Shown piece after piece: positions 1 to 25,677 of a DNA stretch of 64,000 nucleotides (positions are counted from its first letter, which is position 1; every line of letters starts with the position of its first letter). A program made the translations under genes and the position numbers. Under the pieces are notes generated by a model, which had not been told where the DNA came from, ran no database searches, and saw nothing but the letters and a program-made list of their open reading frames with translations. Origin of the DNA: Thermoguttaceae bacterium (GTDB lineage Bacteria; Planctomycetota; Planctomycetia; Pirellulales; Thermoguttaceae); assembly GCA_017447745.1 (NCBI GenBank), contig JAFSMW010000148.1:1-64000 (forward strand), written 5' to 3'.

Positions 1-3000
1 ACGATGGCGATTGACGATCTGCTGTATCAGTACCAGTGGAACCTGGGCGACTTCAGCGTCGGCAATGCAGGCATTGGCGTTGAGGGCGCGTGGCTGTACG
101 CAACCGGGTCTGGCGTTTCGATTGCTGTTGTTGACACTGGAACGGAGTACACTCACGAAGATCTGTATGACAACTACAGCTCCGCGATTTCTTACGACTT
201 TATCGATAAGGACACTAACCCGTCGCCGGAAGACGAATACGAAAACCACGGTACTTCGGTTGCCGGCATTATTGCCGCTGACGACAACGGTTTAGGCGTT
301 GTTGGCGTTGCGTACGATTCTACGTTTGGAAGCATCAGAATTGTTGGCGGCGACACTGATGCAAACGATTATGCGAACGCTTTGACCTACGCTCTGGACA
401 CGGTTGATATTTACAACAACTCTTGGGGAGCCACTCTTTATGAGTACGGTACAACGTATTATTCCCATGTAGCCATGGATCCATTGGAACTGGCGGCTAT
501 CGAAATGGGCGTTACTCAAGGTCGAGACGGCAAAGGCGCCATTTATGTCTTCGCTGCTGGCAACGAGGGAGAGGGCAACATTGACGTCAACATGATGGGA
601 TACACCAATTCCCGATACGTCATTACAGTTGGCGCCGTTAATCAGGACGGAACGAAGTGCGAATATTCTAACACTGGCGCTGCGCTGCTGGTTGTCGCCC
701 CGTCTGGCGGAGACACTACGTACGATGACGAAGACGTTCTGACCGACGCGACCATCGGAACGACCACGACTGACCGCATGGGCGCAGACGGATACAATAA
801 TCTTGATTCGGACGAAGAACTCGCGGCTCTCATTCCAGACTATGAAGATCTGAACTACACCAATTCGTTCAATGGTACGTCAGCCGCCACTCCGGTTGTT
901 TCCGGCGTTGTCGCTTTGATGCTCGAAGCGAATCCCAGCCTGACCTGGCGCGACGTTCAGCAGATTCTGGTTGAAACGTCCGTTCAGGTAGACGCCTCCA
1001 ACGAAGACTGGACAACCAACGGCGCGGGCTACAACATCAGCTACAATTATGGCTTTGGTCTTGTCAACGCGAAAGCGGCTGTCGAAAAGGCTTTGACGTG
1101 GGAAAATCTTCCGGATGAAATTCACACGACCGCTTACTCTATTGACACGCCTGTTACAATTGGCAAACAAAGCTCTTCAACTATTTCTGTTACAGATAAG
1201 AGCATCAGCTGCCTGGAAACGGTTGAAATTACCGTCGAAATCATTCACCCGACAGAAGGCGATTTGAAGATTGAACTGATTTCGCCGGACGGCACGGTTT
1301 CCGTTTTGGCTCAACCTCGAGAGGTTTTGTGGGCAGATGGCGGCTACGACAATTACACGTTCACAACCAAACGCTGCTGGGGCGAAGCCGCTCTTGGCGA
1401 TTGGACGCTGAGAATTACCGATACCGGCACGGAACGAACTGGCGTTTTGAACAGCTGGTCTCTTGATTTTTACGGCAACCAGGGCGACATCGCTCACGTT
1501 GGTCCGGACGTCGTTTCCGTATTCCCGGACGCAGGCGATTCCCTTATCAATTCGCCGACTCTGGATTACGCGCCGAATCAGCTGACCGTTCGTTTTACCG
1601 AAGGACAGGAAATTGATCCCAACACGCTCGACGCCATCAAACTGATGTACCGTCAGAACGAAGGTTCCGAATGGGAAGAAGTTTCTCTGGGCTGGGTTGG
1701 CATCGGCGAACAGCCGAACGAAGTCATTCTTCGCCCGGCGTCTACGTTCCTTGACGGCTTGTATGAACTGGTTATTCTCGGAACGGGCGACAGTCCACTG
1801 CTCAACAACAAGGGCTTTGAATTCCGTTACGATCCGGAAAAGGACGCGGGTTCCGACTATACGTTTGATTTCGCCATGACGCTGCCGCTTCAGGTAACGG
1901 CTGTCGTTCCGATGCCGATTGTTGACGGCGAAGTCAAAGGCGACCAGATTGAAGTTTACTTCAATGCTGACAAGACAGACAATAATTACTATACGGAACC
2001 GCAGTACTATACGCTCTTTGCGACGTATGACACTGCTTCTTCCATCGACGATTATCACGTCAATCCGGATTCCGTTGAACTGGATACCGTTGTTGACGCA
2101 GCAGGGCACAACGTCATGCGCGCCACGCTGACATTCTCTGACGATATTAATAAGATATTTGGCATTTACGGGTCTTATCGCCTCAAGGTTGGCGAAAAAT
2201 ACAGTTACAGCGATACCGAAGAGTTTGACGACGTCGACGGCGAAGATTTCGAAGCGGGCGACGCGTTCCGCACGTCCAAAGACGTTTCCGGCTATTTCGC
2301 CACTACAAACGACGTCTATTCTTCCTTGATTATCAACGGCAACATTGACGTTAAGAAGGCGAACGCAGCGATTCAAACCATGATCGCCAGCGGCGGCGTT
2401 ACAGCGGATGAAATCGACGCTCTGATGGAGCAGATTTACGATTATACCAATCGCTGGCCGGGCGGAAACGACGAACCGGGACACGAAATGCGAACGACGT
2501 CTCTGGAAAACACTGCCAACGTCGAACAGCACATCATGAACTGGGACTTCGACAGTTACGACGCTGAAGCCGGCGTTGTTACATATTTCTACTGTTTCCC
2601 GAAGTCAAACGGTCCATTCAACAACTATGTAACAGAACAGCAAAAGAATTCGGTCAGACAAATCTTCCAGCTTTTGGGCGATTCCTGCGGCATTCAGTTC
2701 TTTGAACTGAAGACGCCGGACGATGGGTCTACTGTTACATCTGTTACTTACAAAGATACAGATTTCCCGGTTATCAGCTTCTTCGTTTCCGATTTGGCGC
2801 TTTTGGGCGGCGAAAGCGGCCCTGGCGGCGTTGCCGGTTTGGGCGGCGGAACGTCAGCCTGCCTGGACCTTGCGGACTTTGGCAACACAACCAACTGCGA
2901 ATACGGTTCCGGGTTCTACTCCGTTGCAATGCACGAAATCATGCACTGCCTGGCGCAGGGACACACCTACGACCTGGACGGCTCCACAATTATGGGCGCC

Positions 3001-6000
3001 AGCACGAAAGAATTCTACACCGGTTCGGAAGAATCCGTCTTCCCAGCTCCGGCTGACGTCGTTCACCTGCAGTACATGTTCCGCAACGACAGCTTGGACG
3101 TTGACATGTACGCCTTCACGCTTCAGCAGAGCGGAACGCTGGAACTGGAAACGATTGCTCGCCGTTTGGAAATGGGCAGCGCGTTGGACACCGTCCTCAA
3201 CCTGTACGACGAAAACGGAACGCTCATTGCTACCAACGACAACTACTTCGGTCTTGACTCCCTGATTGAAGTTTCGCTCAAGCCGGGTAAATACTACGTC
3301 GGCGTTTCTTCTGCGGGCAACGAAGATTACGACCCGGTCAATATCAAGACCGGTATGAACGGTACGACCGAAGGCGAATACCAGCTCAAACTGTCGTTTA
3401 CGCCAGCGCAAAAGGCGTCGACGCTGCTTAACTTTGACGGCGACATGGACGGCAAAGTCGGCGGCGATTTCAACTTCTGGTTTGACGTTCAGAAGGACGA
3501 AAACATTCTCTACGTTGACAAGACCGGAGAATTCACGCCGGACAACGGAACGACCGTTTACACTCAAATTGACGAAGCGATTGCCGACGCAGCCGCGATG
3601 GTTGAACAGCTCAAAGCAACCGGCTCTGACGAACGCGTTATCGTTCGCATTTTGGCTAACAATACCGATAAAGACGATTTGACTCAGCGTGAGGCGTACG
3701 AAATCGGTACGTACACTCAGGGCGGTTCAACAACGACTCTGGAAGACGGCGCGACGCTGGAAATTCCGAAGGGCGTCAGCGTAGTTGTAGAGCAGGGCGC
3801 TGTTATCAAGCTGGCTAACACCAATATTACCGCTGGCTCTCAAAGCGCCATTGGTCCGGTCAACAACGTTCTGGATCAAACCCCGGCTGGAACCATTCAG
3901 CTTTTGGGCGCTCCCAACGAAAAGGTTTACCTGACCTCTTACTGGGATGAAACCATTGGTTCCGACTCCTACAATCAAACGACCACTCCGAAGAGCGGCG
4001 ATTGGGGCGGCATCGTTTTGACCAACGTCAAAGAACATGAATACAACGAAAGCGAAACCGCCAAAGTCTACGGCAAAGTCAAGATTCTCGAAGATGAAGG
4101 CGTTTTCATCAACTACATCGGTTTTGCCGACATCTCCTACGGCGGCGGCGAAGTCAACGTCAACGGATTCAAGTCCGTTTACGCGCCGGTTTATCTGGAC
4201 GAAGCGCGTCCGACAATTCTGTCGAACACGATTACCAGCTCCATGACCGCGGCGATTTCTGCCGACCCGAACAGCTTCGAAGAATCGCACATCTACGGTC
4301 AGGACGAGTTCGACGACTGGTTCACAGCCGATTACGATCGCGTTGGTCCGACCATTCATAACAATACGCTCGTTAAAACTCACGACGTTAAGAAGATCAA
4401 CAAGGCGACTGGCGAAATCACCATTGAAACTGTTACATCCAGCAACTCTGTCAACGGTTTGGCGATTCGTACAACGACCCCAAGCCAGTCCACAATTACC
4501 AAGCTGGACGTTACCGCTCGCTTTGACGATTGGGACATTACCCACGTCATTCAGGAAGACCTTATTCTGGCGTCTGCCGCAGGCGGCGCGGAAGTTTATA
4601 TTGACCCGCGCGGCAATACGTCTGTTAAAAGCCGCATTGGCGGTTCTCTCCGCATTGACGACAACGTTTTGATCAAGCTGGGCAACTCCCGAATTGAACT
4701 GGAAGACAACGCCAATTTGATTGCGGAAGCGACAAAGGGCGACGAAATTGTCTTCACGTCCATTTACGACGACACCTACGGCTACGGCGGTACGTTTGAC
4801 GTTACCAACAACGGCTTCAACGCCGAGATCAACCCCAACGCTGATGAATATAATCCAGAAAACAACGATTATCTTCAGGGCGGCAACTGGGGCGGCATTT
4901 ATCTGGGACATTCGTCCACCGCGTCTTTGGACAATATCAAGTTGATGTACGCCGGCGGTCAGAGCCGAATTGAAGGTTACTTCGTCAACTTCCAGCCGAT
5001 TGAAGTCGTTCAGGCGGATCTGCGTGTAACAAATTCCTACTTCGCATACAACTCTGCGGCGACGGAAGCTTCTGACCGTATCGGTCGCGGCAACGTTACC
5101 AATCCGGCTGTTATTTACGTCCGCAACGCTCAGCCGATTATCGTTGACAACAATTTTGCTGAAAACGAAACGGCGATTATCTCTATCAACGCCAACGCTT
5201 TGACGGCAAACACCGTTAAAGATTACGGTCGTCAGACAGGACTGCTTATTAAACAGGAAGACGGCGCAAAATACGATAATCTGTATCCAGAATACGCCAG
5301 CAACTACGGCCCGATGGTTCGCGAGAACGAATTCAACGACAACCTTTACAACGGCATGGTTGTTCGCGGAGAAGTTCTGACGACGGAAAGCATTTGGGAC
5401 GACGTTGACATCGTTCACATTCTTCAGGACGAAATTGTCGTCGGCAACCATCACACCTACAGCGGTCTGCGTCTGCAAAGCTCGACGACCGGCAGCCTGG
5501 TTGTCAAACTGTTTGGCAATAACGCCGGCTTTACCGCGGCGGGCGCTCCCAACGACGTTGAAGACCGTATCGGCGGCACGGTTCAGGTCATGGGCAACGC
5601 CATGTATCCGGTAATCCTGACGTCTCTGTATGACAATTCCTACGGAGCCGGTTACGATCAGTGGGGCAATTCCGTTACCAATACATATACCGCAACGCCG
5701 CACGCTGCCGACGACGACCCGGAAGGAACGGTCAAAGAATACACTCCTAAAGCCGGCGATTGGCGCAGCATTAAATTCCAGCAGTACAGCAACGATCGCA
5801 ACGTTGCGGTTGTCGTTGAAACTGAAGGAACGTACAACGTTACCAACGACGTCAACAACACGCTTAAGAACGCTCAGAATCTTGGCGCCTTGGCAAACAA
5901 CATCAACGGCGGCGACGAAAACAATCGCCTTGGATTCGATATTCACGGTACGATTCATTCCAACCGCGATTCCGCCGATCAGGCAGATTCCGACGTCTAC

Positions 6001-9000
6001 AGCTTCAAGGCGATTGCCGGAACCGATATTTGGGTTGACGTCGACCTGACTCGTTATGCGTTGGATACGATTGTCGAACTGCTCGACAGTAACGGAAACG
6101 TTGTTGCTCGCAACGACCGCAGCGAAGATCTGTATTCGTGGCTGGATTACACCGCCATGGTTTCTGAAGAACTGCGAAATCTGTCCGACCTGTGGGGAAC
6201 CACGCTGGACAAGATTCCCGCCAGCGAAAAGAATGAATCCAACTTCCGCGAAGCTATTGTTACAACCATGCAGCAGCAGTTCTACGTCCAGTACTATCAG
6301 GACGCGGGAGAACTGGAAGGCTTGGCTAACGCCAGAGTGGACGCTGAACAGCAGTACTCTCGTTTGACCGGATACGACTGGGACGAAGACGCGTACCTCA
6401 ACGCCAACGGCGATTATCAGGCAGAACCTGATCCGCTGGTTACAAGCGGTTACGCTTCCAGCATGAACATCGACATCTGGGAACGCAACTCGAATGACGA
6501 TTACGGTCTGAACGAAAAAGACTCCGGCTTCAAAGTAACGCTTCCTGGCGTTGCCGGCGTTGAAACACAGTACTATCTGCGCGTAAAGAGCAATTCCAAC
6601 GACAGCAATACGTCAACTAACACGTCTGCCCCCATTGCCAATCTGGAAGGCCGCACCTACGGCGAATACACTGTTCAGATTCGTCTGCGCGAAACCCAGG
6701 AAAAGGCGGGCTGCACGGTTCAGTACGCTCAAATCTTCTACGCCACCAACGGCATCGAAGTTATCGGCACGCCGTCTTCATCGCCGTTGACGGTTGACAT
6801 GGCAGACGTCGAAATTGGAATCACCGGAAAGAACATCTCGCCAGACGGCATCGGAAAGAACGACACGTTCCGCGCCGCGCAGAATATCGGCAACGTTCTG
6901 GAAACGACTCACGGTTCCATGAGCCTGACCGGTTACATTGCCAGCTCGAACGATATTGACTGGTACAAGTTTGACGTCAAAATTCCAAACCAGCAGGATA
7001 TTCCGGGCGTTTCCAACACAGGGGAAGGCGTCTATCCGCTTACCATTGACGTTGACTACTCCGACGGCATGGGACGCGCCAAGGTCAACCTGTGGCTATT
7101 CGACGCTTCTGGAAAGCTGATTGCTTCTTCGACCGGAAGCAACATCACCGGCGACCAGGCGACGCCGTTTACCGGCGCAGACTCCAGCAATCTGGAATCC
7201 GGGTCCGGCGGAACGGGCGACCCCTACATTGGCACGTTCTACGTCCCGGAAGGCACGTATTACGTTGCCGTCGCGCCGCAGCACATGACGCCTGCCGCAT
7301 TGTCACAGCAGTTGCTTCGTCAGGAATCGGTTGACTCTGTCGAACGCATTGTGGAAGACGATATGTCTGGCAGAGGCTGGACGAACCTGCCGGTTGATAC
7401 AACGTATGCACTCAATTTCAAACCGGAAGCGTACTCGCTGGCTGACGTCCGTATGTATCTTGGAAACAACAAGACGCTGTACTCCAACAACAGCTTTACC
7501 GGCGCTGGAGAAGTCAACTGGGGCGGCAACCATGATCACGATAACGACAACCCGTCGTTCAACGACGTTTACGGCGATTACGTCATGCGAAGCGACGGTC
7601 AGATGTACGCCATCGACAACAAGACCGGTACGCGACAGATTATTAATCTGGAAGACGCTGGTCAAAGAACCGATGCAGGCGTTTTGGGAACCATTGCGTA
7701 CTCAATGGGTGAAGACGGTCTGGAAAGAATTGACGACTACACGACTGGCATTCGTTATGAAGCGATTGTCTTTGCTCACGAAAACGGAACCAGCTACCAG
7801 TATACCAACCGCCCGATGTTCGTCATCGGCAACCTGACTCGTCAAATTGCCGGCGTTGACTTCAACCAGAACTTGCTGTACATGGTCAACAACGACGGTA
7901 CAGTTCATTCGCTTGAAGGCGGTCAGGACGATGCAGCCAAGGCTGGAACCAACGACGTTCCGCTGTCTTACCTGCTTTCCGGACTTACGCTCAAGACGAA
8001 AGACGCTTCTGATCCCAGTACGGATTCTACGCAGCTTGATCTGCGCGATGGACATCAGCTCACGTTCAAGTTTGAAGAGGAAACCGCTCTGGACGACGTT
8101 ATTGTCGAATTCGACACAGGCGTTGACCTGATGGTAGACCCGATGGGCGGCTTGAAGATTCGCGACGGTCAGACGTTCACCGTTGCCGGCAAGACGTTCG
8201 AGTTTGACAGCGGACAGGTTCTTGAAATTGCTCAGGATCCGGCAGTTACCGACGGCGACCAGCTTCTGTTTGTCAACATTGATGAAGAAAATCCAACTCC
8301 CAAAATCATCTTCTTCTCCAACAGTACATTGCCAGAAGCCGATCGCGCCAAGGCTCCAGAAGGCGCCTATACGGTTGTCATCAATAACGATGAATCGTCC
8401 ATGTCGTTGATGCGAAAAATTGTTGCTCAACTCAACAAAGCGGGTATTACCGCTATTGCAGGTTGGGACGACGCCAACGAAAATATGGCTCAGGACGACG
8501 AAGAAATCGGTCGTATTTCCTTCAACTCCCTGTTCACGTATACGTCTCAGACCTCCCAACCATGGGTTACTCAGGTTGCTTTCACAGGCGTAACGGACGG
8601 CAACATCGCAATTCCGTTTACGGAATGGGCGACAGGCGAAAGACCGTCTGACGTCAACGCCTGGCTGACGAAACTTGACGAGTCGATTTGCGACGCTATT
8701 AATCAAAACGTTTCCGGCGTTTACGCTTCGTTCTTCCATCGCGATGTAACTCAAGACGCAAACGGCAACCTCGTTCCGTCCATTGGCGACAGAATTACGA
8801 TTCACAACCTGGCGGCGGACGAATTCGACGCTGGCGATACGACTGTCTTCACTCATCGTGAAAACGTCCTGGGCGGACTCAGCGGAGCAGGCGTTACAGA
8901 AGGAACGAACGTCATTCGCGTTCGCGTTGACGCTGATTATCAGGCTGACCAGATTTCCCGCCTTATCAATCGCGCGATTGAAAACTTCAAGCTGGAAAAT

Positions 9001-12000: not shown

Positions 12001-15000
12001 GACTTCTACGTCCAGTATCACTCCAGCTACAGTTCGTACGATATGGCGGAAGTGATTGCAACAGCCGTCAATACCCAGTATCTGTACACGATTAACGATC
12101 CAACGTATCGCGCATTCTCGGTCAGAGCCAAACATTCAGACGGCAGCAATCACGTTGACCTGTACGGCGCAACATGGATTAAGGGCATCACGGCGGTTGA
12201 TTCCGATTGCGGCGATGCGATTATTAACCAGATGACTGGCAAGATTGAAGGCTACACCGGCTTGAAGGCTCTGTCGTATATCAACTACGGAGCTGAAACC
12301 GCGACATATCAGGAATTCGTTAACGGTCAGAATCAGGCTAACGACAAGTCCCTGCTTCATGGCGACGCTAACGTTACAACGGGTCAGGGTCAGATTGTTC
12401 TGAGCAACAACCTCGTTGCGTACAGTTCCGGCTACGGCATTTACTCTGCCGGCAACAAGGCGGTTGATTCATCCGGACATCAGAACGAAGTGTTCCAGCT
12501 GGCAAGCAAACCGGATTCCAAGTACACGATTTATCTGGACTTCACAGGACACACCGCAGTTGGAACGTCGTGGAACGGCGGCGCGGAAGTCGTTACGCCG
12601 ACTTACGATTCCAATTACGATTTGATTTACGAAGTCTGGCAGCGAGTTGCTGAAGACTTCATGCCGTGGGACGTCAACGTTACGACGATTGAACCGGAAG
12701 ACGATTCTTGCGCTCAGGCGGGCGTTCTGCGCGTCTGCATTGGCGGTTCGTGGTCAGATTGGTATGGCAAGTCCGCCGGCGGCGTTGCGTTCCTTGGTTC
12801 GTTCACCTGGGACAGCGACACTCCGGCTTACGTCTTCGCCGACAACCTTGGCAGCGCGAAGAGCATTGCTGAAGCCGCATCGCACGAAATCGGTCACACA
12901 TTTGGACTGAGCCACGACGGCGACCCGACCAACGAATACTACGGCGGCGCCAACGGCTGGGCTCCGATCATGGGCGTTGGATATTCTCAGGTCTTGACTC
13001 AGTGGAGCAAGGGCGAATACCCAGGCGCAACCAACAAAGAAGACGACATCAAGATTATTACCGACGTTATTTCTGGTCTTCAGAAGACAGATCCAGATGC
13101 GACCAGCACAATGGGCGTTCGTCCGGACGATCACGGCGACGGTTCTGGCAACGCTACTGATCTGGGAGACATCCTTCAGGCAACTTCCGGCGTCATCGCA
13201 ACAGGCATTATTACCACCAAAGACGATGTTGACTGGTTCATGTTCACCGTTTCGGAAGATTGCACTCAGAAAGTTACCATCGGCGGCATTGACCTGATTA
13301 CCAACCTTGACGCTGGCGTTCGTCTGTACAATAATAACGGCGCTGAGATTACTGACCCGACGGTTATTCAGGAATCCGGTTTGAAATACATCATCAATCT
13401 GGATCAGCTGGTTATTTCTCAGGCGGGCATGTTTGAAGACGGCGTTGCCACCTTCCGTTTGAGCGTCGAAGGCACAGGAAGCAGCCAGGCGACTACTGGA
13501 GACTCCATCTCCACGGGTTCAGGAGGAAATTACACTGACTACGCCAGCTTGGGATCCTATACAATCAGCATTCAGGTTCCCGCTACTGATGTAACAGTCG
13601 ATCCAGACGCGCCTGACGCCATCTTCCCCGGCTTTATCGTTCCGTTCTCCACGATTAACGATGAACGCTGGGTGCCGTCAACCGTTGCGTACAACAACAT
13701 CCTGGCGTTTAACGAAACCGGCGGCATTTACTTCGCCGGCAACTCCAACGCCGAGGAAATCATCGGCACGGTTCCTTACGGACGAATTGTTAACAACACG
13801 ATTTGGGGTACGAAGGACGGCGACACCGGTATTTTGGTCGGCAGCAACGCAACGGCAACCGTTTTGAACAACGTTGTCGCCAACTGCGGCGCCGGCATCT
13901 CCATGGACGGCACCGCCAGCAGCTCGATTGTCAGCGGTTACAACGCTTACTACTCCAACAACGTCAATACCAGCGGCGGCGCGGCTCTGGGGTCGAACGC
14001 GATTCTGCTTCGTTCCGGCGAACCTCTGTTCGTCAACCCGGATAAATTGAACTTCTATCCGGAAGCCGATTCGAGAATCATCGACGCGTCCGCAAACGTT
14101 TTGGCTCAGCGCGCTGAAATGGACAAGCTGTATGACCTCCTGGGAATCAGCACGTCTCCGATTCAGGCGCCTGACACCGACATTTACGGTCAGCTCCGCG
14201 CGGACGATCCGAACGTTCAGAATTCTTCCGGCGTTGGCGCTAACGTCTACAAAGATCGCGGCGCTGTCGAACGCATTGACTGGGTTGGTCCGGTTGCCAC
14301 TATTTACAATCCGGTTGACCTTTACAATACGGCTCCGTCAACCAAACTGACGGACGATTCCGATTTGAATCGCAACGACGTCGTTCTGACCGGCGTTTCG
14401 CTTTCCAACTTCATTCTCGACTTCACCGACGAAGGCGTTGGCATTGACGACGACACTGTTACAGAGAAATCGTTCACGCTTTATCGCATTCTCAACGGAT
14501 ACGAACAGGACGCTGACGGCAATTATATCGACGCCAAAGCGGAATTTGAAGCTGGCAATCCGTATGTTGAGAAACTCAAGCTGACCTATGATTACCTGTT
14601 CCGTTACAACGCAACGTTAGACAGAGTTACGCTCATTCCGGTAACGGGTTCGTGGACGCTGGGATACACGTATCAGATTGAACTTGATTGCAACTCCACC
14701 AGTCCGTACTGCATTTACGATTTGGCGGGCAACGAACTTCAGCCCAACCGCACGTCCGGAACTCAGGTTGGCAGAACGATATTCAACATTTCGCTCTCCG
14801 GCATGAACTTCGGCGATGCTCCGGACAAGCCCATGTTCCCGGACTACAACTACCAGACGTTCCTGGCGAACGATGGTCCCGCTCACGTGATTGTTCCGGG
14901 CTTCAGTCTGGGCGAAACGGTTATGGCGACAGCCGATGCGATTGTCAACAAAGACGCTACTGGTTCTGCGGACGACGACGGTCTTGAATTCAAGTTCAAG

Positions 15001-18000
15001 GACGCCATGCTCAGCCGCAAGGAAGACAACACGATTATTGTTTCTGTTCGCAACGACGCCATTGCAGCAGAAGACGCTCCGACAACGATTGCCGGTTACG
15101 TCTGCATGTGGATTGACGTCAATGGCGACGGTTACTGGAACACCGCTGGCGACTTCTTCACAATGAAGGAAGTCTACGTTGGCGAAAACGAATTCAACGT
15201 TTCGGCGTCTGATTTGGCAGGCGGCGCAGACGAGACTTATCTCCGCGCCAGACTGTTCACGGTCGATACCGTTACAGAAGCCATTGCAGACGGCGCTGAC
15301 TTCAGCCAGTGGTTTGCCGGCTCTCGAGACGCCGATGGCAACTTCATCGTTAATCCGATCGTCCTCGGCGGCGAAGTTGAAGACTACAAGGTTTACCTGG
15401 TCGACGACTTCTTCGATTACGGCGACGCGGCGCAGTCTTACGGCTCTGCTTCGCACATAGTCGATAACGCGTCCGGCGACTACATTTACCTCGGTACGGA
15501 AGACGACGGCGTTACCGGCGGCGTTGACGCTGAAATCACTCAGCATTATTCACAGAATGCAACCGGCGACGACCTGTACGGCAAACTCGATCCTGACGGC
15601 GCTGTTATCAACGACGAGCAGGGCGTAGTAATCGACGAAGAAACGCTCACGCCGGGCGAATACGTCCACCTGACGGTCAATACCGCCAACACGCTTGGAA
15701 CCGGTTACCTGTACGTCTGGCTTGATGTCGACGCCGACGGCATTTTCGAGATTGACGAATGCATCGTAAGCGATTACGTCATCTCTGGAACTGGCGTCAC
15801 GGACATCGTTTCCGATTACCAGATTCCTCAGATTGAAGGCAACTACATGACGGCGGCTCGCGTTCGTTTCAGCGCTGAACCGTTGACAGACGCTGGAACT
15901 GCCGACGCCTCTGGACGCGATCTGGGCGCTATCGGTTTCGGCGGCGCAGTTGCCACCCGCGGCGAAGTGGAAGATTATCAGGTTATGATGTCTGAATTTT
16001 TCTATGACTACGGCGACGCGGAAGATTCCTACAAGACGCTGGCAATCAGCAGCGGTCCATATCATCAGCTTACCCCGCGCGACAGCGAAGGAAATCGCGC
16101 GACGATTGGCTCCGATGTAACATTTGAACTAGATGGAAAACCGTCTCCGATGGCTGACGCTGACGAAGACGACGGAATCAGCGTTGATTCCTACACCGGT
16201 TACGTCGATACCGCGATTGTCGTTGGCGCTACGGTTCAGCTGCCGATGTCCGTTACAGGCGAAGGCTATCTGGTATTCTGGATTGACCTTAACCAGGACG
16301 GAACGTTCAGCGAATCGGAACGCGTTGAAGTCAGCAGCGTTGCTCAGAGACAGGGAACTGACAAGTTTGAAGATATTCCGAAGTCCAAGTGGAACGTTAC
16401 CTGGGGTTACGAAGTTGGTTCGTACACCGGCGTCAACGAAGCTTCCGACCTGTTGGTCAGCCTGAACATTCCTGAAACTGCGAAGGTCGGCGAAACGGCA
16501 ATGCGCGTTCGCTTCTACGAACAGTCCAACGACTTTGCCAGCATGACGCCTGCCGCTTCCGGCTTCGGCGGATACGGCGAAGTTGAAGACTACATCGTCT
16601 TCGTCCAGGAAGGCTCCAGCGTCATTGAAGGCTACAAGTTCAACGATACTAACAATAACGGCATTTGGGACGTCTATCCGGAAGACGATGAAACGTCCAT
16701 TACGGAAGACGGACTCAAGGGCGCTGCGATTTATATCGACGCCAACAACAACGGCGTTTGGGACGACGGTCACGAAGATAACGGCAAGTGGATTCCGGCG
16801 GAATCAATTGCTGTTACAAATCCGTTCGGATACTACAAGTTTGACAATCTGGTTTCCGGAACGTACATCGTTCGTGAGATCTTCAACATTGAAGACCTGT
16901 CCACGGAATTTACATCGACGTTCATTACAGACGGTTCTGTCGATGAAGACGCTGTAATTCAGTGGTTCAAGGAAAACTACGGCGCGACGCTCCATACGCT
17001 GGAAGAATCCGACCTGTATCTGCGCTCTTATCCGCAGCGAGTCGCTTCCATTCCGGAAAACGACGCGTCCAATGCAGACGTTCCGGTCAACGAGAAGGCG
17101 TTCACGTTTGAATTCCTCAACGAGAACAACATTTCTCTGGAAGGCTGCCACGTTTACATTACCAACTACGGAACCAACTACACAGACGGCATCCCGGTAA
17201 CATACGACTTTATCCTGACGAACGTTCCGGATATGGTTTCGACCGACTCGACGAAGATTTACGTCTACTTCGATCCGTCCGTCGCCAATCCGATGGAAGA
17301 ACTGGCGAAGAACTTTGCCAACGCGGTCAATACGCTTGCCAGCGTCAAGATGACGGCAACGCGCACGGGCAATCGTGTTACGATTAACTCCGGCGTGTTT
17401 GACCTGCGCGTCAGCAACGGCGGCGAAAAACTGCTTCCGACTGAGGATATCGAATGGTTCAACATTCTCACCTCGCACTCCATGCCGGGCGAGAACCTGT
17501 CCGACGGCGGTTATCAGGTTGTCGTTGTAACAAAGGAAGGCGATTACTCCGGAGTCAACTTCGGTTCGTATCGCAAACCGGAAGTTGCCGTTCATCAGAC
17601 GGACATCTACGCTGAAGGCAATACAGGCTGGCATACGATTCAGGTTCCGATTATGATTACCAAGTCCTTCGGTTCGGAATTCGACCTGTACTACGAAACC
17701 GCCGACGGCACGGCTAAGGGATACGGCGATCCGGCTAATCCGTATGATGGAAACAATCCAACTGTCAGAGCGCAAGCTACGCCTCTGGCTCCGGAAATTG
17801 ACTTCATCCACACCAGCGGAACGGTTCACGTCAGCATTGACGCCGATGAAATTCAGGGCGGCGGATGGCAAGTTACTCCGGTTACCGTTGCCAGCTCTTC
17901 AGACAACTATGAAACCGCGATTGCTGGCGATTACATCGTCTTCCGTTCCGGCAAAGACATTCACTATATCGACACCCGAACGGCGTGGTCTGAAGAAACC

Positions 18001-21000
18001 GGTTACGTTACCATCAACGACATTACCCGCGACGGCGAAGCGACTGACGACGCTTATCTGACCGCACGCGAAATGGAAGACGGTTCTGTTTTGGTCGTCT
18101 GGTCGAAGCAGGATCCGAAGACGCTGCACTGGTCGCTGTACTACTACGTCATTGGAGAAGCCACTTCGGAAAGCGAAGGAACTCCGATTCCGTTTACCTA
18201 TTCAGATTACGACTACTACGCACCAGTAATTGCCGACAGCTGCATTTACTACTTCTTTGCAGAAAAAGCAGGGTCGACAGTCGGTTCGCTGTACTCGCTG
18301 GACATTGCAAGCCTCCAGAATCCGTCTGCCGGCATGAATTCGATTGCTTACGGCAATATTCCGATCGAATCGCTGCACGTCAATAAGAGCATTGACAAGA
18401 ACGATTTCGCCGCGAAAGCCAACAGCATCGTCTTCACGCTTGACAATCAGATTTACTACAAGGAAGGCGAGGGAACGACCACGCCGACTTGCATCAGCGC
18501 TACTGGCGTTAAATGCTACAACCCGCAGATTGACGGCGACTACATCGTTTGGGAAGAAGACGTTGAAGGCGTCAGCACCCGACGACTGGTCATGTACACG
18601 ATCTCTACGGGCGAGCAGGTTACCATTCGCGAAACTCAGACTCTGGAAGTTACTGGCAAGAATGGCGACCCCGAAGAAAAGGTATACACGACCAATAACG
18701 TCAGAGCGGCGATCGACAACGGCATGATTGTTTGGGAAGGCGACGTTTATTCAGTCAATGAAAGCGGTCAGGTTGGCAAGACGACGGAAATCCTGCTGTA
18801 TGACATTGCTTCCAAGGAAACGATGCAGCTTTCAGACGGCACGGGACGCAACGCGACCCCGTCCATCAACGGCTCGCTGATTTCCTGGGCGCATGAAGTT
18901 ACCAAGACTAACGGTCAGCTGGACAAGGAAATCGTAGCGTACGATCTGGATTCGCTGGAATCCTCGCTCATTACGCGTCAGGGCAACGACTGGGATCCGC
19001 TGGTTTGCAACGAAGACATGATCATCTGGCGCGGCGAATCCAAGACGTCTGGCAGCTATGAACTGTATCTCGCCTCCGTTGTGGAACCGTACTATGTGGC
19101 TTACGTAGACGTTTGGGTGTACGGCGACACGATTGTCGAACCCGACGAATACTTCTACATGAACGTTTCCACGACAGAAGGAAACGTCATCGTTCACAAC
19201 GACCAGACTCAGGTTTGGCTGCTCAACGACGACAGTAATTCTGGCGACAGCGTTTCGATGGATTACGGCGACGCTCCGTCTACCTACAAAGTAACTTTGG
19301 AGAAGAACGGCGCGCGTCACGACGCTTCCGATTACAAACTCGGAGCTTCGATTACCTACGAAAAGACAGCCAACTCCAACTCGGACGCCACTGGCGACAA
19401 GGGCGACGACGGCGTTGCAGAACTGAAAGACCCGACCAAGGTCAAGACGTTTGTTTCTGGCATGGTTTACACCTTGACAGTTAGCGCGACGATTCCGGAT
19501 ACGGACGCCGACGGCTCCGCTTATCTGGACGCCTGGATCGACTTCAACGGCGACGGTCTGTGGACTGATGATGAACGCATTGCGGATTCGGCTATTGTTG
19601 TCAACGGCGAAAACGAAATCACCTTCATGGTTCCGTACACGTCATACGCTGGCAATTCCTACGCTCGTTTCCGTCTGTCTGACGAAGGCGGTCTGGATTC
19701 GGTCGGATACGCTGCCACTGGCGAAGTTGAAGATTACAAGGTTGCGGTTGCGAAGGCGAATCCAACCAACGCCAAGACGCTGACGATTACCAGCAACACC
19801 GCTGGCGAAGCGTACGAACTGAAGTTTGTCAACGACGGCTCGCAGTTCGTTGTTACAAAGACTGTCGGCGGCGTTACCCAGTACGCGAAGTTTGCGTCTA
19901 ACAAACTGTCGTGGGTTGATACCGAGAATGTGTTGAACGTCAGCGCCTTCGATCTGATCAAGATTTCCAATTCGGCTGGCGACAGTACGTTCAAGTTCAC
20001 CGGTTTGGACAGCGGAGAAGAAATCTACAAGCTCTATCAGAACAAGGGATTCATCTACTCCAACGGACTCAACGTCAACGTTTCCGGCATGGCGTATATG
20101 GACGTCAATACCAAGGGCGGAACCGACAAGATTACGCTTCTCGGCTCCAACAGCCAGGATCTGTTCCAGGTTGGTAACGCCAGCGCCACGGTTTCCAGCG
20201 TAGAAGATGGAACTGCTTACTACAATGTAACCAACATCGACTCGACCGCCGTTGTCATGTGCTACGGCGAAACCGCTCAAAACGACAGCGTTGAAATGTA
20301 CACGGTTGAAGGAACCTCGTCCAAGGCGGAATTCACCCGCAATGACCTGGTTATTTCCGACCTGACCGGCGGCGTGTATCGCAAGGCTATTGGATTCAAG
20401 AACCTGTCCGCTTACGCGTCCAACGCTGACGACGAAGTTGTGTTCAACTACGTTACTGGCACAATCGACTTCACGGTCGACCCGATTGTCAATACCGACA
20501 AGGAGAACACCTTCTATCAGGAAGCTTACGGATTCAGCAATCCGGAAGCAAACGCGGTCAGTTCTTCGGCGAGAATTATCGTTTCGGCTCAGGAAGACGG
20601 CGAACTGGTTGTCAGCCCGACGCAGTTGGTCTTCACGGGTATCGAAAAGACGATTACCGCGCAAGGATTCGCCAACGTCGAATTTGACGGTAACGGACAT
20701 GATATCAGCGCGGCGATGTACGACTCCGAGGGCGACGATCTGGTTACCATGTACGCCAACAACGTCCAGATGAAGGGAACCAATTACCTCAACGTTATCA
20801 AGAACGTCAAGTTTGTCAACGCTTACTCGACCAGCGGCAACGACATCGCGAAGATTTACGACACCGACGATGTCAACTACCTCTATTCGCAAGCGTACTC
20901 GACAACAATCTTCGACGCGAAGAGAACGTACAGCAATTCGGCAACCGGATTCAAGACGGTTCAGGCGTATGCGACCACGGCTGGAAGCAAGGCGTTCATG

Positions 21001-21339
21001 TACGACTCCGTCGGCAACGACGTCCTCGTTTCGACCTCGGCGTACACGGCGATGTCTGGCAATTCCTACAGCAACAAGGTGTACGGATACACAACGGTCA
21101 ACGTAGCCAGCGTCAACGGCGGAAACGACGTTGCTCGTCTGTACGACTCCGCTGTGGACGACGTCCTGTCAGCTGGAACGGACTGGGCGCAGATTGAATC
21201 CGCCGACCTCGGCATGACCCGTAAGGTTTCCAACTTCGGTCTGGTTGAAGCGGTTGCGACAAACGCCGGTTCGAAGACGGTTTCCAACGCCAACAGCGCC
21301 AGAGATTACGTCCTCAACACCTTCGGTTGGGATGACTAA
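1..21339 (+). CDS. Giant multidomain exported protease/surface protein (5'-partial)
   Basis: The frame is open to the left edge. The first ATG (base 4) starts directly in a subtilase domain with no signal peptide, so the true start is probably upstream. Residues counted from that ATG: S8 subtilase about 15-365 with D44, H82, N187 and S293 (NGTSAATP); P-domain about 380-493; a matrixin-like zinc site HEIMHCLAQGH at 977-987; a PPC domain; a Ca-binding-like segment near 1145; long right-handed beta-helix stretches with further PPC domains; a second zinc site HEIGHTFGLSH at 4294-4304; four GEVEDY-ended modules near 5123, 5320, 5525 and 6573; an SdrD/B-like module near 5541-5640; TolB-like propeller repeats; a Calx-beta-like segment near 6360-6410; and C-terminal repeats with YDS-x-GNDVL-like cores. 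The protein is probably surface-bound or secreted. The substrate is unknown. No PEP-CTERM or LPXTG-like sorting tail was recognised. Confidence 0.93.
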   Translation, partial: TMAIDDLLYQYQWNLGDFSVGNAGIGVEGAWLYATGSGVSIAVVDTGTEYTHEDLYDNYSSAISYDFIDKDTNPSPEDEYENHGTSVAGIIAADDNGLGVVGVAYDSTFGSIRIVGGDTDANDYANALTYALDTVDIYNNSWGATLYEYGTTYYSHVAMDPLELAAIEMGVTQGRDGKGAIYVFAAGNEGEGNIDVNMMGYTNSRYVITVGAVNQDGTKCEYSNTGAALLVVAPSGGDTTYDDEDVLTDATIGTTTTDRMGADGYNNLDSDEELAALIPDYEDLNYTNSFNGTSAATPVVSGVVALMLEANPSLTWRDVQQILVETSVQVDASNEDWTTNGAGYNISYNYGFGLVNAKAAVEKALTWENLPDEIHTTAYSIDTPVTIGKQSSSTISVTDKSISCLETVEITVEIIHPTEGDLKIELISPDGTVSVLAQPREVLWADGGYDNYTFTTKRCWGEAALGDWTLRITDTGTERTGVLNSWSLDFYGNQGDIAHVGPDVVSVFPDAGDSLINSPTLDYAPNQLTVRFTEGQEIDPNTLDAIKLMYRQNEGSEWEEVSLGWVGIGEQPNEVILRPASTFLDGLYELVILGTGDSPLLNNKGFEFRYDPEKDAGSDYTFDFAMTLPLQVTAVVPMPIVDGEVKGDQIEVYFNADKTDNNYYTEPQYYTLFATYDTASSIDDYHVNPDSVELDTVVDAAGHNVMRATLTFSDDINKIFGIYGSYRLKVGEKYSYSDTEEFDDVDGEDFEAGDAFRTSKDVSGYFATTNDVYSSLIINGNIDVKKANAAIQTMIASGGVTADEIDALMEQIYDYTNRWPGGNDEPGHEMRTTSLENTANVEQHIMNWDFDSYDAEAGVVTYFYCFPKSNGPFNNYVTEQQKNSVRQIFQLLGDSCGIQFFELKTPDDGSTVTSVTYKDTDFPVISFFVSDLALLGGESGPGGVAGLGGGTSACLDLADFGNTTNCEYGSGFYSVAMHEIMHCLAQGHTYDLDGSTIMGASTKEFYTGSEESVFPAPADVVHLQYMFRNDSLDVDMYAFTLQQSGTLELETIARRLEMGSALDTVLNLYDENGTLIATNDNYFGLDSLIEVSLKPGKYYVGVSSAGNEDYDPVNIKTGMNGTTEGEYQLKLSFTPAQKASTLLNFDGDMDGKVGGDFNFWFDVQKDENILYVDKTGEFTPDNGTTVYTQIDEAIADAAAMVEQLKATGSDERVIVRILANNTDKDDLTQREAYEIGTYTQGGSTTTLEDGATLEIPKGVSVVVEQGAVIKLANTNITAGSQSAIGPVNNVLDQTPAGTIQLLGAPNEKVYLTSYWDETIGSDSYNQTTTPKSGDWGGIVLTNVKEHEYNESETAKVYGKVKILEDEGVFINYIGFADISYGGGEVNVNGFKSVYAPVYLDEARPTILSNTITSSMTAAISADPNSFEESHIYGQDEFDDWFTADYDRVGPTIHNNTLVKTHDVKKINKATGEITIETVTSSNSVNGLAIRTTTPSQSTITKLDVTARFDDWDITHVIQEDLILASAAGGAEVYIDPRGNTSVKSRIGGSLRIDDNVLIKLGNSRIELEDNANLIAEATKGDEIVFTSIYDDTYGYGGTFDVTNNGFNAEINPNADEYNPENNDYLQGGNWGGIYLGHSSTASLDNIKLMYAGGQSRIEGYFVNFQPIEVVQADLRVTNSYFAYNSAATEASDRIGRGNVTNPAVIYVRNAQPIIVDNNFAENETAIISINANALTANTVKDYGRQTGLLIKQEDGAKYDNLYPEYASNYGPMVRENEFNDNLYNGMVVRGEVLTTESIWDDVDIVHILQDEIVVGNHHTYSGLRLQSSTTGSLVVKLFGNNAGFTAAGAPNDVEDRIGGTVQVMGNAMYPVILTSLYDNSYGAGYDQWGNSVTNTYTATPHAADDDPEGTVKEYTPKAGDWRSIKFQQYSNDRNVAVVVETEGTYNVTNDVNNTLKNAQNLGALANNINGGDENNRLGFDIHGTIHSNRDSADQADSDVYSFKAIAGTDIWVDVDLTRYALDTIVELLDSNGNVVARNDRSEDLYSWLDYTAMVSEELRNLSDLWGTTLDKIPASEKNESNFREAIVTTMQQQFYVQYYQDAGELEGLANARVDAEQQYSRLTGYDWDEDAYLNANGDYQAEPDPLVTSGYASSMNIDIWERNSNDDYGLNEKDSGFKVTLPGVAGVETQYYLRVKSNSNDSNTSTNTSAPIANLEGRTYGEYTVQIRLRETQEKAGCTVQYAQIFYATNGIEVIGTPSSSPLTVDMADVEIGITGKNISPDGIGKNDTFRAAQNIGNVLETTHGSMSLTGYIASSNDIDWYKFDVKIPNQQDIPGVSNTGEGVYPLTIDVDYSDGMGRAKVNLWLFDASGKLIASSTGSNITGDQATPFTGADSSNLESGSGGTGDPYIGTFYVPEGTYYVAVAPQHMTPAALSQQLLRQESVDSVERIVEDDMSGRGWTNLPVDTTYALNFKPEAYSLADVRMYLGNNKTLYSNNSFTGAGEVNWGGNHDHDNDNPSFNDVYGDYVMRSDGQMYAIDNKTGTRQIINLEDAGQRTDAGVLGTIAYSMGEDGLERIDDYTTGIRYEAIVFAHENGTSYQYTNRPMFVIGNLTRQIAGVDFNQNLLYMVNNDGTVHSLEGGQDDAAKAGTNDVPLSYLLSGLTLKTKDASDPSTDSTQLDLRDGHQLTFKFEEETALDDVIVEFDTGVDLMVDPMGGLKIRDGQTFTVAGKTFEFDSGQVLEIAQDPAVTDGDQLLFVNIDEENPTPKIIFFSNSTLPEADRAKAPEGAYTVVINNDESSMSLMRKIVAQLNKAGITAIAGWDDANENMAQDDEEIGRISFNSLFTYTSQTSQPWVTQVAFTGVTDGNIAIPFTEWATGERPSDVNAWLTKLDESICDAINQNVSGVYASFFHRDVTQDANGNLVPSIGDRITIHNLAADEFDAGDTTVFTHRENVLGGLSGAGVTEGTNVIRVRVDADYQADQISRLINRAIENFKLENREYEDAIQTTVTGKYIMFTGELEEVNANDDAVFVFDGDINANGGKLTGLAWVGNDLYAVSENGDLYRVTYEGGSMANFDVRDENNGNDFHDTFRFGTDDEEIDAAETDWDVIYETREDGDDTYLALCDNTYRDKKFNLELIACLGKNFTGLTNGPENVEDGLYADLLFATDNNGVVYCFDTTGAYKGVFSNGAYSVETGRGGAVGIDFTTQDFNMWHRTNIRQDEAGHKINKTFDRARTNDADGNASYYFGMEDPYTDIYIGYDQGSVTNTLQAYVTNSGLYSTYNAAGGTHGSLVSDEFSLTNISSDDQPFMTFEYYLDSESSEIYDSFRIYIRSTDPLASQLVGQNATTIGSKVNPQGYDTMAAMLTAANGQWVMLGTNLDNDLPDNNNNYYNSNRPTSKVGYDVVDLGGGWYQAKIDLSDYAGLSNLQLKLDFTTQSSDFVGDLSTTGELLYGTEGLNVFSGDQIAIDNEVFTFNAGEKVLVYSNPALRMSGNMTVLQFQSPEVGTINVNVFKATDYQEPGVQNMNIYITDSTTASEFAEYLTEALNNQYADIASCAQQIEDDILTPGHKSTAARDIVGLNKGLTFSASGDDLLVVVGTDTIEFSTINTAVVNNGGSRADNPEGTNFTSLINRPFSITDIYGQEVEYTVVPSQQSKTGYFVEALTAGEDEPEQFEVASIYDVATAVSEVSGRGGVSAYICENSMIVRCASGVTIGAGMATYSSRGNDVAGEHTIDVEYSMTSHEVSNAIAEALEEAFASSETIDTPDGSYSTKVDDLWTVVKINGGVDNNGNDTGFNDQLHVINHVITSPGFLSAASMQWGDARVRASYRWLQGEIGGYETHQDNALKKHQGQDNAYEGVYVDNFCISLGGRGTMYTAVTGNTTFNSGTPSGPTSGYYLLNIRTATDYGVYDVDSETLSLTRTFRATDRLDGGLTMVSPEGGAINHLQTFSIGDGNSEQRFVMVNMDIVNTEITSGAFADFEEWWDYNVAQEIVRESDFYVQYHSSYSSYDMAEVIATAVNTQYLYTINDPTYRAFSVRAKHSDGSNHVDLYGATWIKGITAVDSDCGDAIINQMTGKIEGYTGLKALSYINYGAETATYQEFVNGQNQANDKSLLHGDANVTTGQGQIVLSNNLVAYSSGYGIYSAGNKAVDSSGHQNEVFQLASKPDSKYTIYLDFTGHTAVGTSWNGGAEVVTPTYDSNYDLIYEVWQRVAEDFMPWDVNVTTIEPEDDSCAQAGVLRVCIGGSWSDWYGKSAGGVAFLGSFTWDSDTPAYVFADNLGSAKSIAEAASHEIGHTFGLSHDGDPTNEYYGGANGWAPIMGVGYSQVLTQWSKGEYPGATNKEDDIKIITDVISGLQKTDPDATSTMGVRPDDHGDGSGNATDLGDILQATSGVIATGIITTKDDVDWFMFTVSEDCTQKVTIGGIDLITNLDAGVRLYNNNGAEITDPTVIQESGLKYIINLDQLVISQAGMFEDGVATFRLSVEGTGSSQATTGDSISTGSGGNYTDYASLGSYTISIQVPATDVTVDPDAPDAIFPGFIVPFSTINDERWVPSTVAYNNILAFNETGGIYFAGNSNAEEIIGTVPYGRIVNNTIWGTKDGDTGILVGSNATATVLNNVVANCGAGISMDGTASSSIVSGYNAYYSNNVNTSGGAALGSNAILLRSGEPLFVNPDKLNFYPEADSRIIDASANVLAQRAEMDKLYDLLGISTSPIQAPDTDIYGQLRADDPNVQNSSGVGANVYKDRGAVERIDWVGPVATIYNPVDLYNTAPSTKLTDDSDLNRNDVVLTGVSLSNFILDFTDEGVGIDDDTVTEKSFTLYRILNGYEQDADGNYIDAKAEFEAGNPYVEKLKLTYDYLFRYNATLDRVTLIPVTGSWTLGYTYQIELDCNSTSPYCIYDLAGNELQPNRTSGTQVGRTIFNISLSGMNFGDAPDKPMFPDYNYQTFLANDGPAHVIVPGFSLGETVMATADAIVNKDATGSADDDGLEFKFKDAMLSRKEDNTIIVSVRNDAIAAEDAPTTIAGYVCMWIDVNGDGYWNTAGDFFTMKEVYVGENEFNVSASDLAGGADETYLRARLFTVDTVTEAIADGADFSQWFAGSRDADGNFIVNPIVLGGEVEDYKVYLVDDFFDYGDAAQSYGSASHIVDNASGDYIYLGTEDDGVTGGVDAEITQHYSQNATGDDLYGKLDPDGAVINDEQGVVIDEETLTPGEYVHLTVNTANTLGTGYLYVWLDVDADGIFEIDECIVSDYVISGTGVTDIVSDYQIPQIEGNYMTAARVRFSAEPLTDAGTADASGRDLGAIGFGGAVATRGEVEDYQVMMSEFFYDYGDAEDSYKTLAISSGPYHQLTPRDSEGNRATIGSDVTFELDGKPSPMADADEDDGISVDSYTGYVDTAIVVGATVQLPMSVTGEGYLVFWIDLNQDGTFSESERVEVSSVAQRQGTDKFEDIPKSKWNVTWGYEVGSYTGVNEASDLLVSLNIPETAKVGETAMRVRFYEQSNDFASMTPAASGFGGYGEVEDYIVFVQEGSSVIEGYKFNDTNNNGIWDVYPEDDETSITEDGLKGAAIYIDANNNGVWDDGHEDNGKWIPAESIAVTNPFGYYKFDNLVSGTYIVREIFNIEDLSTEFTSTFITDGSVDEDAVIQWFKENYGATLHTLEESDLYLRSYPQRVASIPENDASNADVPVNEKAFTFEFLNENNISLEGCHVYITNYGTNYTDGIPVTYDFILTNVPDMVSTDSTKIYVYFDPSVANPMEELAKNFANAVNTLASVKMTATRTGNRVTINSGVFDLRVSNGGEKLLPTEDIEWFNILTSHSMPGENLSDGGYQVVVVTKEGDYSGVNFGSYRKPEVAVHQTDIYAEGNTGWHTIQVPIMITKSFGSEFDLYYETADGTAKGYGDPANPYDGNNPTVRAQATPLAPEIDFIHTSGTVHVSIDADEIQGGGWQVTPVTVASSSDNYETAIAGDYIVFRSGKDIHYIDTRTAWSEETGYVTINDITRDGEATDDAYLTAREMEDGSVLVVWSKQDPKTLHWSLYYYVIGEATSESEGTPIPFTYSDYDYYAPVIADSCIYYFFAEKAGSTVGSLYSLDIASLQNPSAGMNSIAYGNIPIESLHVNKSIDKNDFAAKANSIVFTLDNQIYYKEGEGTTTPTCISATGVKCYNPQIDGDYIVWEEDVEGVSTRRLVMYTISTGEQVTIRETQTLEVTGKNGDPEEKVYTTNNVRAAIDNGMIVWEGDVYSVNESGQVGKTTEILLYDIASKETMQLSDGTGRNATPSINGSLISWAHEVTKTNGQLDKEIVAYDLDSLESSLITRQGNDWDPLVCNEDMIIWRGESKTSGSYELYLASVVEPYYVAYVDVWVYGDTIVEPDEYFYMNVSTTEGNVIVHNDQTQVWLLNDDSNSGDSVSMDYGDAPSTYKVTLEKNGARHDASDYKLGASITYEKTANSNSDATGDKGDDGVAELKDPTKVKTFVSGMVYTLTVSATIPDTDADGSAYLDAWIDFNGDGLWTDDERIADSAIVVNGENEITFMVPYTSYAGNSYARFRLSDEGGLDSVGYAATGEVEDYKVAVAKANPTNAKTLTITSNTAGEAYELKFVNDGSQFVVTKTVGGVTQYAKFASNKLSWVDTENVLNVSAFDLIKISNSAGDSTFKFTGLDSGEEIYKLYQNKGFIYSNGLNVNVSGMAYMDVNTKGGTDKITLLGSNSQDLFQVGNASATVSSVEDGTAYYNVTNIDSTAVVMCYGETAQNDSVEMYTVEGTSSKAEFTRNDLVISDLTGGVYRKAIGFKNLSAYASNADDEVVFNYVTGTIDFTVDPIVNTDKENTFYQEAYGFSNPEANAVSSSARIIVSAQEDGELVVSPTQLVFTGIEKTITAQGFANVEFDGNGHDISAAMYDSEGDDLVTMYANNVQMKGTNYLNVIKNVKFVNAYSTSGNDIAKIYDTDDVNYLYSQAYSTTIFDAKRTYSNSATGFKTVQAYATTAGSKAFMYDSVGNDVLVSTSAYTAMSGNSYSNKVYGYTTVNVASVNGGNDVARLYDSAVDDVLSAGTDWAQIESADLGMTRKVSNFGLVEAVATNAGSKTVSNANSARDYVLNTFGWDD

Positions 21340-21481
21340 ACAGAAGAGTTTTGAGATGTGAGAGTAACAGATGGAGTCAGAGGGCAAAAATGAGGAGTTA
21401 GACGTTGAACAAACGCCAGCAAATACTCCTCATTCCAAACCCTTGACTCAAAATGATCCAAGCGACCAACGGGAGCGAGTT

Positions 21482-24209: not shown

Positions 24210-25658
24210 ATGCGCCATTTAACGTTTATAATTTTTGTATTGTGTTTTGGACTTGTGCTGCAGTCTTCTCAACCAGCGAATGGTTTTGAAGAATCCGCAC
24301 GTTCCTAAAAAAGCGTTTGGTCTGGATATTGGTGGCCGTTGCGCCGAGGTGAAATAGTAGCGCCATTATCCAAATACGACAAACAGACAGGAAAAAAGTC
24401 GGCAGAGTGGGAGAAGAAGAACAATCCTGCTGGTTCTGAAGTTCCTCAATGGTTTGGATACTGTCATGCATGGTCAGCTTCAACTGTTCTTGAAAACGAA
24501 CCGAAACAAGTCCTTCAATCCGGTTCACAAAGTTTGACGGTTGGAGATCAGAAAGGTCTCTTGGCAATCATTCACGCTGATGACGATGCCGAATTTGTCG
24601 GTACGCGTTACGAAGCGGGCGGCGATTTCGCCGACGTTGAACCGACTGCGCTTTGGAGCGCTCTGAAGACCTATATTAAAGAAAAGGGCGTGCCGATAGT
24701 GGCAGATATTGAACCCGGCGAGCCGGTTTGGAATTATCCGGTTTACGCCTATAGAACCAAACTGATTCCCCGAGGCAATAAGGGATTCGGAACCATTGAA
24801 ATCTGGTTTGCGGACGATGCTGTCGGCAAGGATTTTGTCGGACTGAAGGCCTTGTATAAAAAGTACACATTCGAGCTGCAACTCGACGCAAACGGCAATC
24901 CCGTGATGGGATCCGGCAAGTGGACCGGGAGAAGCGTCAAGGATCATCCAGATTTTCTGTGGTATCCGACTTGTACAAAGCCTGAAAATCCAGAGGTTGA
25001 GACTGCCCAGGTTAAAAGAATGCTTCGTTGCGCGCCTCCCACTCCTCCGACGCCAACCACTCCGACTCCGCCGCCGACTCCGGAAATCCCTGCAATTACG
25101 CCTTCAGAACTTGTAAACCTGATTGCGGATCAGACTTCAGATTTTATGCTGGATATTACGGTGGATAAATTTGACGGTGGAATGTACGACATCGGCGAGA
25201 AAATCTCGGTATTTGGTAAAAGTGATAAAAGCGGTTATCTTTATCTCATCGGCATTTCACCAAAGGGAGGTTTGACCGTTTTATATCCGCAGAATGGAGA
25301 TAACAACAAAGTCCAGGCGGGACAAGATTTCACAATTCCAGATCCTAATTCAAGGTATTCGTTTTCAATAGCTTCGCTGCCAGGAAAGTATCGAGTGAAG
25401 GCGATTGTAACTGATAAACCTTTGGTTATCGGCGGTTGGGATCAGGAAACGAGCTCGTTAACGCGAACCAAATCTGGCAGTTTGGCAATGGATATTTCAA
25501 ACTTCCGTTGGAGTCCAACAACCACGGATACGGCTCAAAGCGATGTTTGCGAGCTTATGACCAAACGCGTTGGAAATGAAGGCGACTCTGTCAAAAAACG
25601 GTTCAATTTGAAGCAATTTGCTCAAGATGAAGTCGTATTTATTGTTAAACCCAAGTAG
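24210..25658 (+). pseudogene. Transglutaminase-elicitor-type protein with DUF4384, interrupted by an in-frame stop
   Basis: An ATG at 24210, 10 bases after AGGAGGA, opens a signal peptide (MRHLTFIIFV...). After 32 codons there is TAA (24306-24308), and the same frame continues uninterrupted to 25658. Just after the stop comes WSGYWWPLRRG, then PLSKYD, W-F-GYCHAW with candidate catalytic Cys at 24462, VWNYPV (24726-24743), which resembles the Pep-13 signature VWNQPV of Phytophthora GP42 transglutaminase, and HPDFLWYP with His at 24945. This fits the TGase_elicitor family. A Thr/Pro linker (about 25036-25090) leads to a DUF4384-like domain (GYLYLIGISPKGGLTVLYP). Without readthrough, only an internal TTG at 24339 could start the rest, without export signal and within the domain. 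Either a recent nonsense mutation or recoding. Confidence 0.75.
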
Positions 25659-25677
25659 TAATTGTGAAAGGTAAATA

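Follow-up and report, generated by a model that had tools for sequence, protein, structure and literature searches.

The window analysed comprises 64,000 nucleotides, and its base 1 is also base 1 of contig G000:C115 of a 4.35-Mb MAG of a Thermoguttaceae bacterium. An ORF scan and full translation yielded one uninterrupted reading frame (frame 1) of 7,112 codons at the start of the window, in agreement with an earlier note on this DNA, which had described a single polypeptide of more than 7100 residues with three protease active sites. Because the window begins at the contig's first base, the ORF is truncated at its 5' end. An intact copy of 7,268 aa is carried on a 453-kb contig of a second MAG of the same genus (G063; RGIG2232, goat duodenum), where the domain order is colinear with that of the window: S8, P, metzincin 1, metzincin 2 and GEVED. 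A second allele lies on C180, another contig of the same MAG as the window; its ATG is 156 residues ahead of window codon 1. In a further MAG of the genus (G049; RUG11551) the head and metzincin 2 are found on two separate contigs. The closest members are MAGs, from goat duodenum by record title and from rumen by the isolate name RUG. The features of the ORF are collected in Table 1.

Table 1. Predicted features of the giant ORF in window coordinates
Feature	Position	Strand	Evidence and remarks
Giant ORF	1..21339	+	5' truncated; about 156 N-terminal residues with LEPR-XLL-like motif and conserved pre-S8 segment found on C180/G063
Peptidase S8, kexin/furin-like	106..1059	+	PF00082 E 1e-48 (residues 36-353); D45, H83, N188, S294 (frame codons)
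P domain (P_proprotein)	1213..1470	+	PF01483 E 1.8e-24 (residues 405-490)
Metzincin 1, matrixin/serralysin-like	2455..3078	+	HEIMHCLAQGH 978-988, Met-turn STIMG 995-999 (frame codons)
PPC domain 1	3097..3312	+	PF04151 E 1.5e-6; Foldseek to ColG collagen-binding and other collagenase PPC domains
Lineage-specific insertion, about 390 aa, metzincin 2 and PPC-like segment	12454..13620	+	Colinearity with G017 (L053)
Metzincin 2, adamalysin/M12B-like	12493..13110	+	HEIGHTFGLSH 4295-4305, Met-turn WAPIMG 4320-4325 (frame codons)
PPC-like segment behind metzincin 2	13153..13605	+	Tentatively assigned from position and look of the sequence
Putative beta-helix segment (DUF5123/NosD-like)	13618..14220	+	Pfam DUF5123 E 3.4e-4, NosD 0.063, both below cut-off
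GEVED domains 1-3	14818..16620	+	PF20009 E 1.5e-39
Calx-beta-like domain apparently interrupted by beta-propeller-like insert	17650..19236	+	Calx-beta C-terminal part E 0.03; TIGR04275 E 7.6e-5, below cut-off
GEVED domain 4	19258..19770	+	Pfam; similarity to GEVED of relatives

A PMT_2-like glycosyltransferase gene (21371-23164) starts 32 bases past the stop of the giant ORF and is directly downstream in G063 also. It was rejected as a partner of the family, since in eight other genomes its best matches were distant or on other contigs and it was absent from one. Further downstream (24339-27210) come a TGase_elicitor and DUF4384 gene and, behind it, a gene for a caspase-like C14 peptidase.

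The possibility that separate genes had been fused by misassembly was considered, as the contig does carry a join between strains. Window bases 1-4268 differ from G063 by a single base, and from 4269 onward identity falls to approximately 91%; C180 shows the opposite pattern, with differences from G063 as far as 4219 (window coordinates) and none beyond. The window contig and C180 look like the products of a reciprocal strain switch made by the assembler inside one gene, between 4219 and 4269. What this chimera exchanges are two alleles of one gene, at the identical place and with the reading frame preserved, and the domain architecture is unaffected by it. Since G063 has the same colinear ORF within its 453-kb contig, misassembly can be ruled out for the architecture; a misjoining of distinct genes was rejected, the strain chimera notwithstanding, and the fused-gene explanation is extremely improbable. 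Downstream of the switch, dN/dS against G063 was 0.05-0.18 in all segments (0.07 for metzincin 2), and against C180 it was 0.13 for S8, 0.11 for metzincin 1 and 0.36, from few changes, for the P domain. Judged by these ratios, purifying selection acts on the entire chain.

The S8 domain has its full catalytic set (Asp, His, Asn, Ser), including the complete subtilase triad described earlier, and the P domain follows directly behind. The earlier note had placed the triad at D44, H82 and S293 and the zinc motifs at 977-987 and 4294-4304; these positions are exact when numbering starts with the Met of codon 2. The best PDB relative of the S8+P head is yeast Kex2 (1ot5; E 1.2e-73, both domains aligned), with furin next, and by virtue of this similarity the fold of the head is settled. 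The acidic S1/S2 pocket residues of Kex2 (DDG after SWGP and the D of DGYTNS) are not retained: VDDG of Kex2 is replaced by VDTG, SWGPADDG by SWGATLYEYG and NYDGYTNS by NMMGYTNS. In Kex2 and furin these substrate-pocket acids confer dibasic specificity. As they are altered in the head, dibasic specificity is unlikely here, and it is classed as a kexin-like fold and not as a dibasic convertase.

A segment in the position of a prodomain precedes S8 and is conserved among the S8-bearing members of the family. Searches of Pfam returned no inhibitor or prodomain family for this segment, NCBIfam likewise gave no match, and the best PDB prodomain match (E 0.62) was not counted as evidence. Near residue 40 the N-terminus carries IEQCEDRVLLS, a look-alike of the LEPR-XLL motif. 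The motif was not recognised by Pfam or NCBIfam profiles, with no LEPR-XLL match in NCBIfam up to E 1, and membership of the LEPR-XLL planctomycete surface proteins was rejected on these grounds.

The HExxHx5H motif occurs twice in the chain against 0.0005 expected per shuffled protein. Profiles and predicted structures assign a metzincin fold to both segments, the point on which the earlier proposal of two metalloproteases depended. For metzincin 1, a profile of 22 family sequences matched MMP-12 in the PDB (E 4e-7). An AlphaFold2 model built from 41 sequences (pLDDT 75.5) recovered serralysins and MMPs as fold matches (Z 12.3-13.9), the best being the serralysin-type 1o0q (Z 13.9, 167 residues aligned, 3.5 A), with MMP-3/7 at Z 12.9. 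The Met-Gly of the Met-turn is invariant in family alignment A1. In fold searches the adjoining PPC domain resembles the binding domains of clostridial collagenases.

As the earlier note had observed, site 1 has Ala in place of the usual Gly (HEIMHCLAQGH), where relatives have HNLGFGH, HLLGYGH and similar. Among the best 80 of 243 places in a public genome collection, HExxHx5H was found in 71, of which 66 have the usual Gly, and no HExxHx5(H/D/E) was found in eight. Ala occurs at this position in this genus only, among the sequences examined, with Arg, Ser and Asn singly elsewhere; as far as these alignments indicate, the substitution is a genus-level change. The Gly of the metzincin motif has been termed strictly conserved (PMC3427221), and G or N has also been given at the position (PMC12237041). 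With the conserved Gly missing and the genus on a long branch (0.93) of the metzincin 1 tree, catalysis at site 1 could be impaired. Taken further, one or both metzincins, site 1 foremost, might be non-catalytic and act as modules for binding or structure, a view to which the Gly-to-Ala change in a fast-evolving genus, the outright loss of the motif in some relatives (e.g. HEILSLLGLGQ in G039/L080) and its lack in eight of the best 80 loci lend some weight. Site 1 nonetheless keeps its Met-turn, its Glu and each of its three His in the four alleles of the genus, and the dN/dS of metzincin 1 is low (0.11); a scaffold of pseudoproteases is considered unlikely.

Metzincin 2 has the motif HExxHxxGxxHD HEIGHTFGLSHD and the Met-turn WAPIMG, with His, Glu and Met invariant in alignments A2 and A4. 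Its third His precedes Asp, and an Asp following the third zinc His is a trait of adamalysins. Matches to Pfam were below the curated cut-offs (Reprolysin_5, E 1e-4, 23.1 bits against 27; Reprolysin_3, 20.4 bits against 22.4), and the domain is for this reason labelled adamalysin-like rather than M12B; a relative in G015 does exceed the curated cut-off. A profile of 20 sequences matched snake-venom adamalysins (4q1l, E 2e-5), and the top fold matches of a weak model (pLDDT 56.8) were metzincins, with ADAM8 and snake-venom enzymes first (Z 8.7). Neither a PDB search nor profiles gave a match for the PPC-like segment that follows.

The G017 protein (L053) is colinear with that of the window over residues 3853-4153 and 4543-5560. 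The window has 389 residues between these blocks (4153 to 4543), where G017 has only eight (4693 to 4702), the edges being placed from local matches. Metzincin 2 and its PPC-like segment thus appear as a clean later insertion of approximately 390 aa that is absent from G017. Of 101 genomes of the taxonomic family, G000, G063 and G015 were the only ones with both metzincins in a single ORF, and the G015 protein showed no S8 in its first 2,000 residues. The three-protease combination looks specific to the genus in this sample, for which public loci were examined with 10-kb flanks. The same genome as that of the window has a second giant ORF of 3,723 aa (L062 6728-17899, G000:C189) with two M12B-like metzincins (HEIGHTLGLSH and HEAGHTLGLYH), such paired domains recur in the taxonomic family in ORFs of up to 9,310 aa, and ten loci (L143-L152) on contigs catalogued in IMG/VR encode metzincin 2 relatives.

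The earlier note had also listed GEVED, propeller and beta-helix modules. Pfam confirmed GEVED as four stretches in the C-terminal third, and the profile matches for the propeller and the beta-helix both fell below cut-off. The beta-helix segment is nevertheless probable, and the insertion would have fallen into its upstream part. A Calx-beta-like domain seems to be split by the beta-propeller-like insert; a PDB search of this segment gave nothing useful.

Metzincin 1 has relatives in 49 of the 101 taxonomic-family genomes, where their frames reach 10,025 aa, and at the 243 places of the public collection already mentioned, of which the best 80 form the basis of all public counts. These 80 are labelled planctomycetes with a few exceptions; two cultured species, Blastopirellula marina (DSM 3645) and Roseiconus nitratireducens, are among them. 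This is a giant-protein family of Planctomycetota, mainly of Pirellulales. Its core consists of metzincin 1, PPC, long beta-rich repeats and GEVED. The N-terminal slot is variable: S8+P or an M12B-like domain may occupy it, or it may be empty. S8 and metzincin 1 share one ORF in 13 of the 80 relatives; in 12 of these S8+P lies upstream, and in L132 S8 stands between a P-like and a metzincin-like match. Two relatives have an M12B-like domain but no S8, neither was detected in the stretch examined in 55, and ten were truncated at the 5' end. The fusion of two catalytic classes, which the earlier note had thought remarkable, is thus real and conserved, if less singular than supposed. On the metzincin 1 tree S8 is clustered, requiring 7 changes compared with 13.1 in shuffles; several gains or losses would be required, which fits a swappable N-terminal slot. 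The longest frame, of 10,025 aa (G010:C8, L059), has S8+P and several stretches matching the metzincin 1 profile, but the part examined lacks an HExxHx5(H/D/Q) motif.

The sequence shows one continuous ORF that encodes three protease domains, with their catalytic residues conserved. The favoured explanation, held with moderate confidence, is a giant protein of many domains, secreted or attached to the cell surface of a planctomycete from the ruminant gut, in which an adhesive, beta-rich scaffold is armed with three proteases. Export and surface exposure would be expected, as GEVED was defined from fibrillar adhesins (PMC10952558) and planctomycete giant proteins have been read as surface or adhesion proteins (PMC5177795; PMC7717043). 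Metzincin 1 and PPC form a core conserved across the family, and the adamalysin-like metzincin was added later by insertion. Subtilases commonly remove their own pre-segment, and the S8 head may do the same, thereby removing the LEPR-XLL-like N-terminus. The two metzincins would then cleave external proteins, for example host or feed glycoproteins, held by GEVED and the other modules.

That the chain cuts itself extensively is a possible reading, though not the leading one. In one form of it, the giant would be cut by its kexin-like head, alone or together with the metzincins, into functional fragments that are retained together or released. Kexin and furin do have the proprotein-convertase fold, the pre-S8 segment is conserved, and cleavage of huge proteins into smaller ones after their synthesis has been proposed (PMC11573180). 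Dibasic pairs are not enriched in the giant, however (13 against 22 expected, with just four KR/RR), so that an array of dibasic cleavage sites was rejected; the pocket acids of Kex2 are lost, and the absence of S8 from many relatives means that S8 processing is no requirement of the family. A self-maturing polyprotein of this kind is quite improbable. The fuller version, in which three built-in proteases of two catalytic classes would mature a single 7,270-residue chain into a set of extracellular modules, is regarded as very doubtful.

The adhesive scaffold with outward-acting proteases remains the preferred reading, and the family as a whole places proteases inside a giant chain by means of a swappable N-terminal slot and domain insertion. 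The present protein offers a case of a kexin-fold protease with matrixin- and adamalysin-type metzincins in a single polypeptide. Since the proteases are built into the chain, processing and substrate use are addressable by point mutants of defined active sites. Giant genes abound in planctomycetes, and what becomes of their products after synthesis is an open question (PMC11573180); and self-processing, if true, would answer it for this case of a bacterial huge protein.

Searches of open-licence papers found neither a subtilisin-metalloprotease fusion in one bacterial polypeptide nor a giant with kexin-like and matrixin-like domains or with three proteases. Planctomycete giant genes and a matrixin-annotated giant have already been published. 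Fibrillar adhesins of the CshA type also have GEVED in a long, extracellular-type repeat protein, and proteases are not mentioned for them in the available portion of the source (PMC10952558). The nearest published protein is Pla52n_17500 of Stieleria varia (6,858 aa; PMC7717043), a planctomycete giant of the same size class with a matrixin annotation and adhesion-type domains; by description, the only basis of this comparison, neither S8 nor a second metzincin is reported there. The head shares the S8 fold, P domain and Asp/His/Asn/Ser set of the kexin/furin (S8B) convertases, but differs in lacking the Arg/Lys pocket acids and in heading a 7,270-residue chain, where kexin and furin are stand-alone enzymes. 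Metzincin 1 has the fold, HExxHxxxxxH motif and Met-turn of the matrixins and serralysins (M10), its third His being followed by Thr (Ser/Thr in matrixins), whereas its Ala for Gly at motif position 8 and its embedding in a giant chain with PPC behind set it apart. Metzincin 2 agrees with the adamalysins/reprolysins (M12B) and their bacterial relatives in HExxHxxGxxHD, Met-turn, best profile matches and, on the weak model, best fold matches, and is distinguished by a score below the Pfam cut-off and by a subfamily signature of its own, WAPIMGVGY...QWSKGEY.
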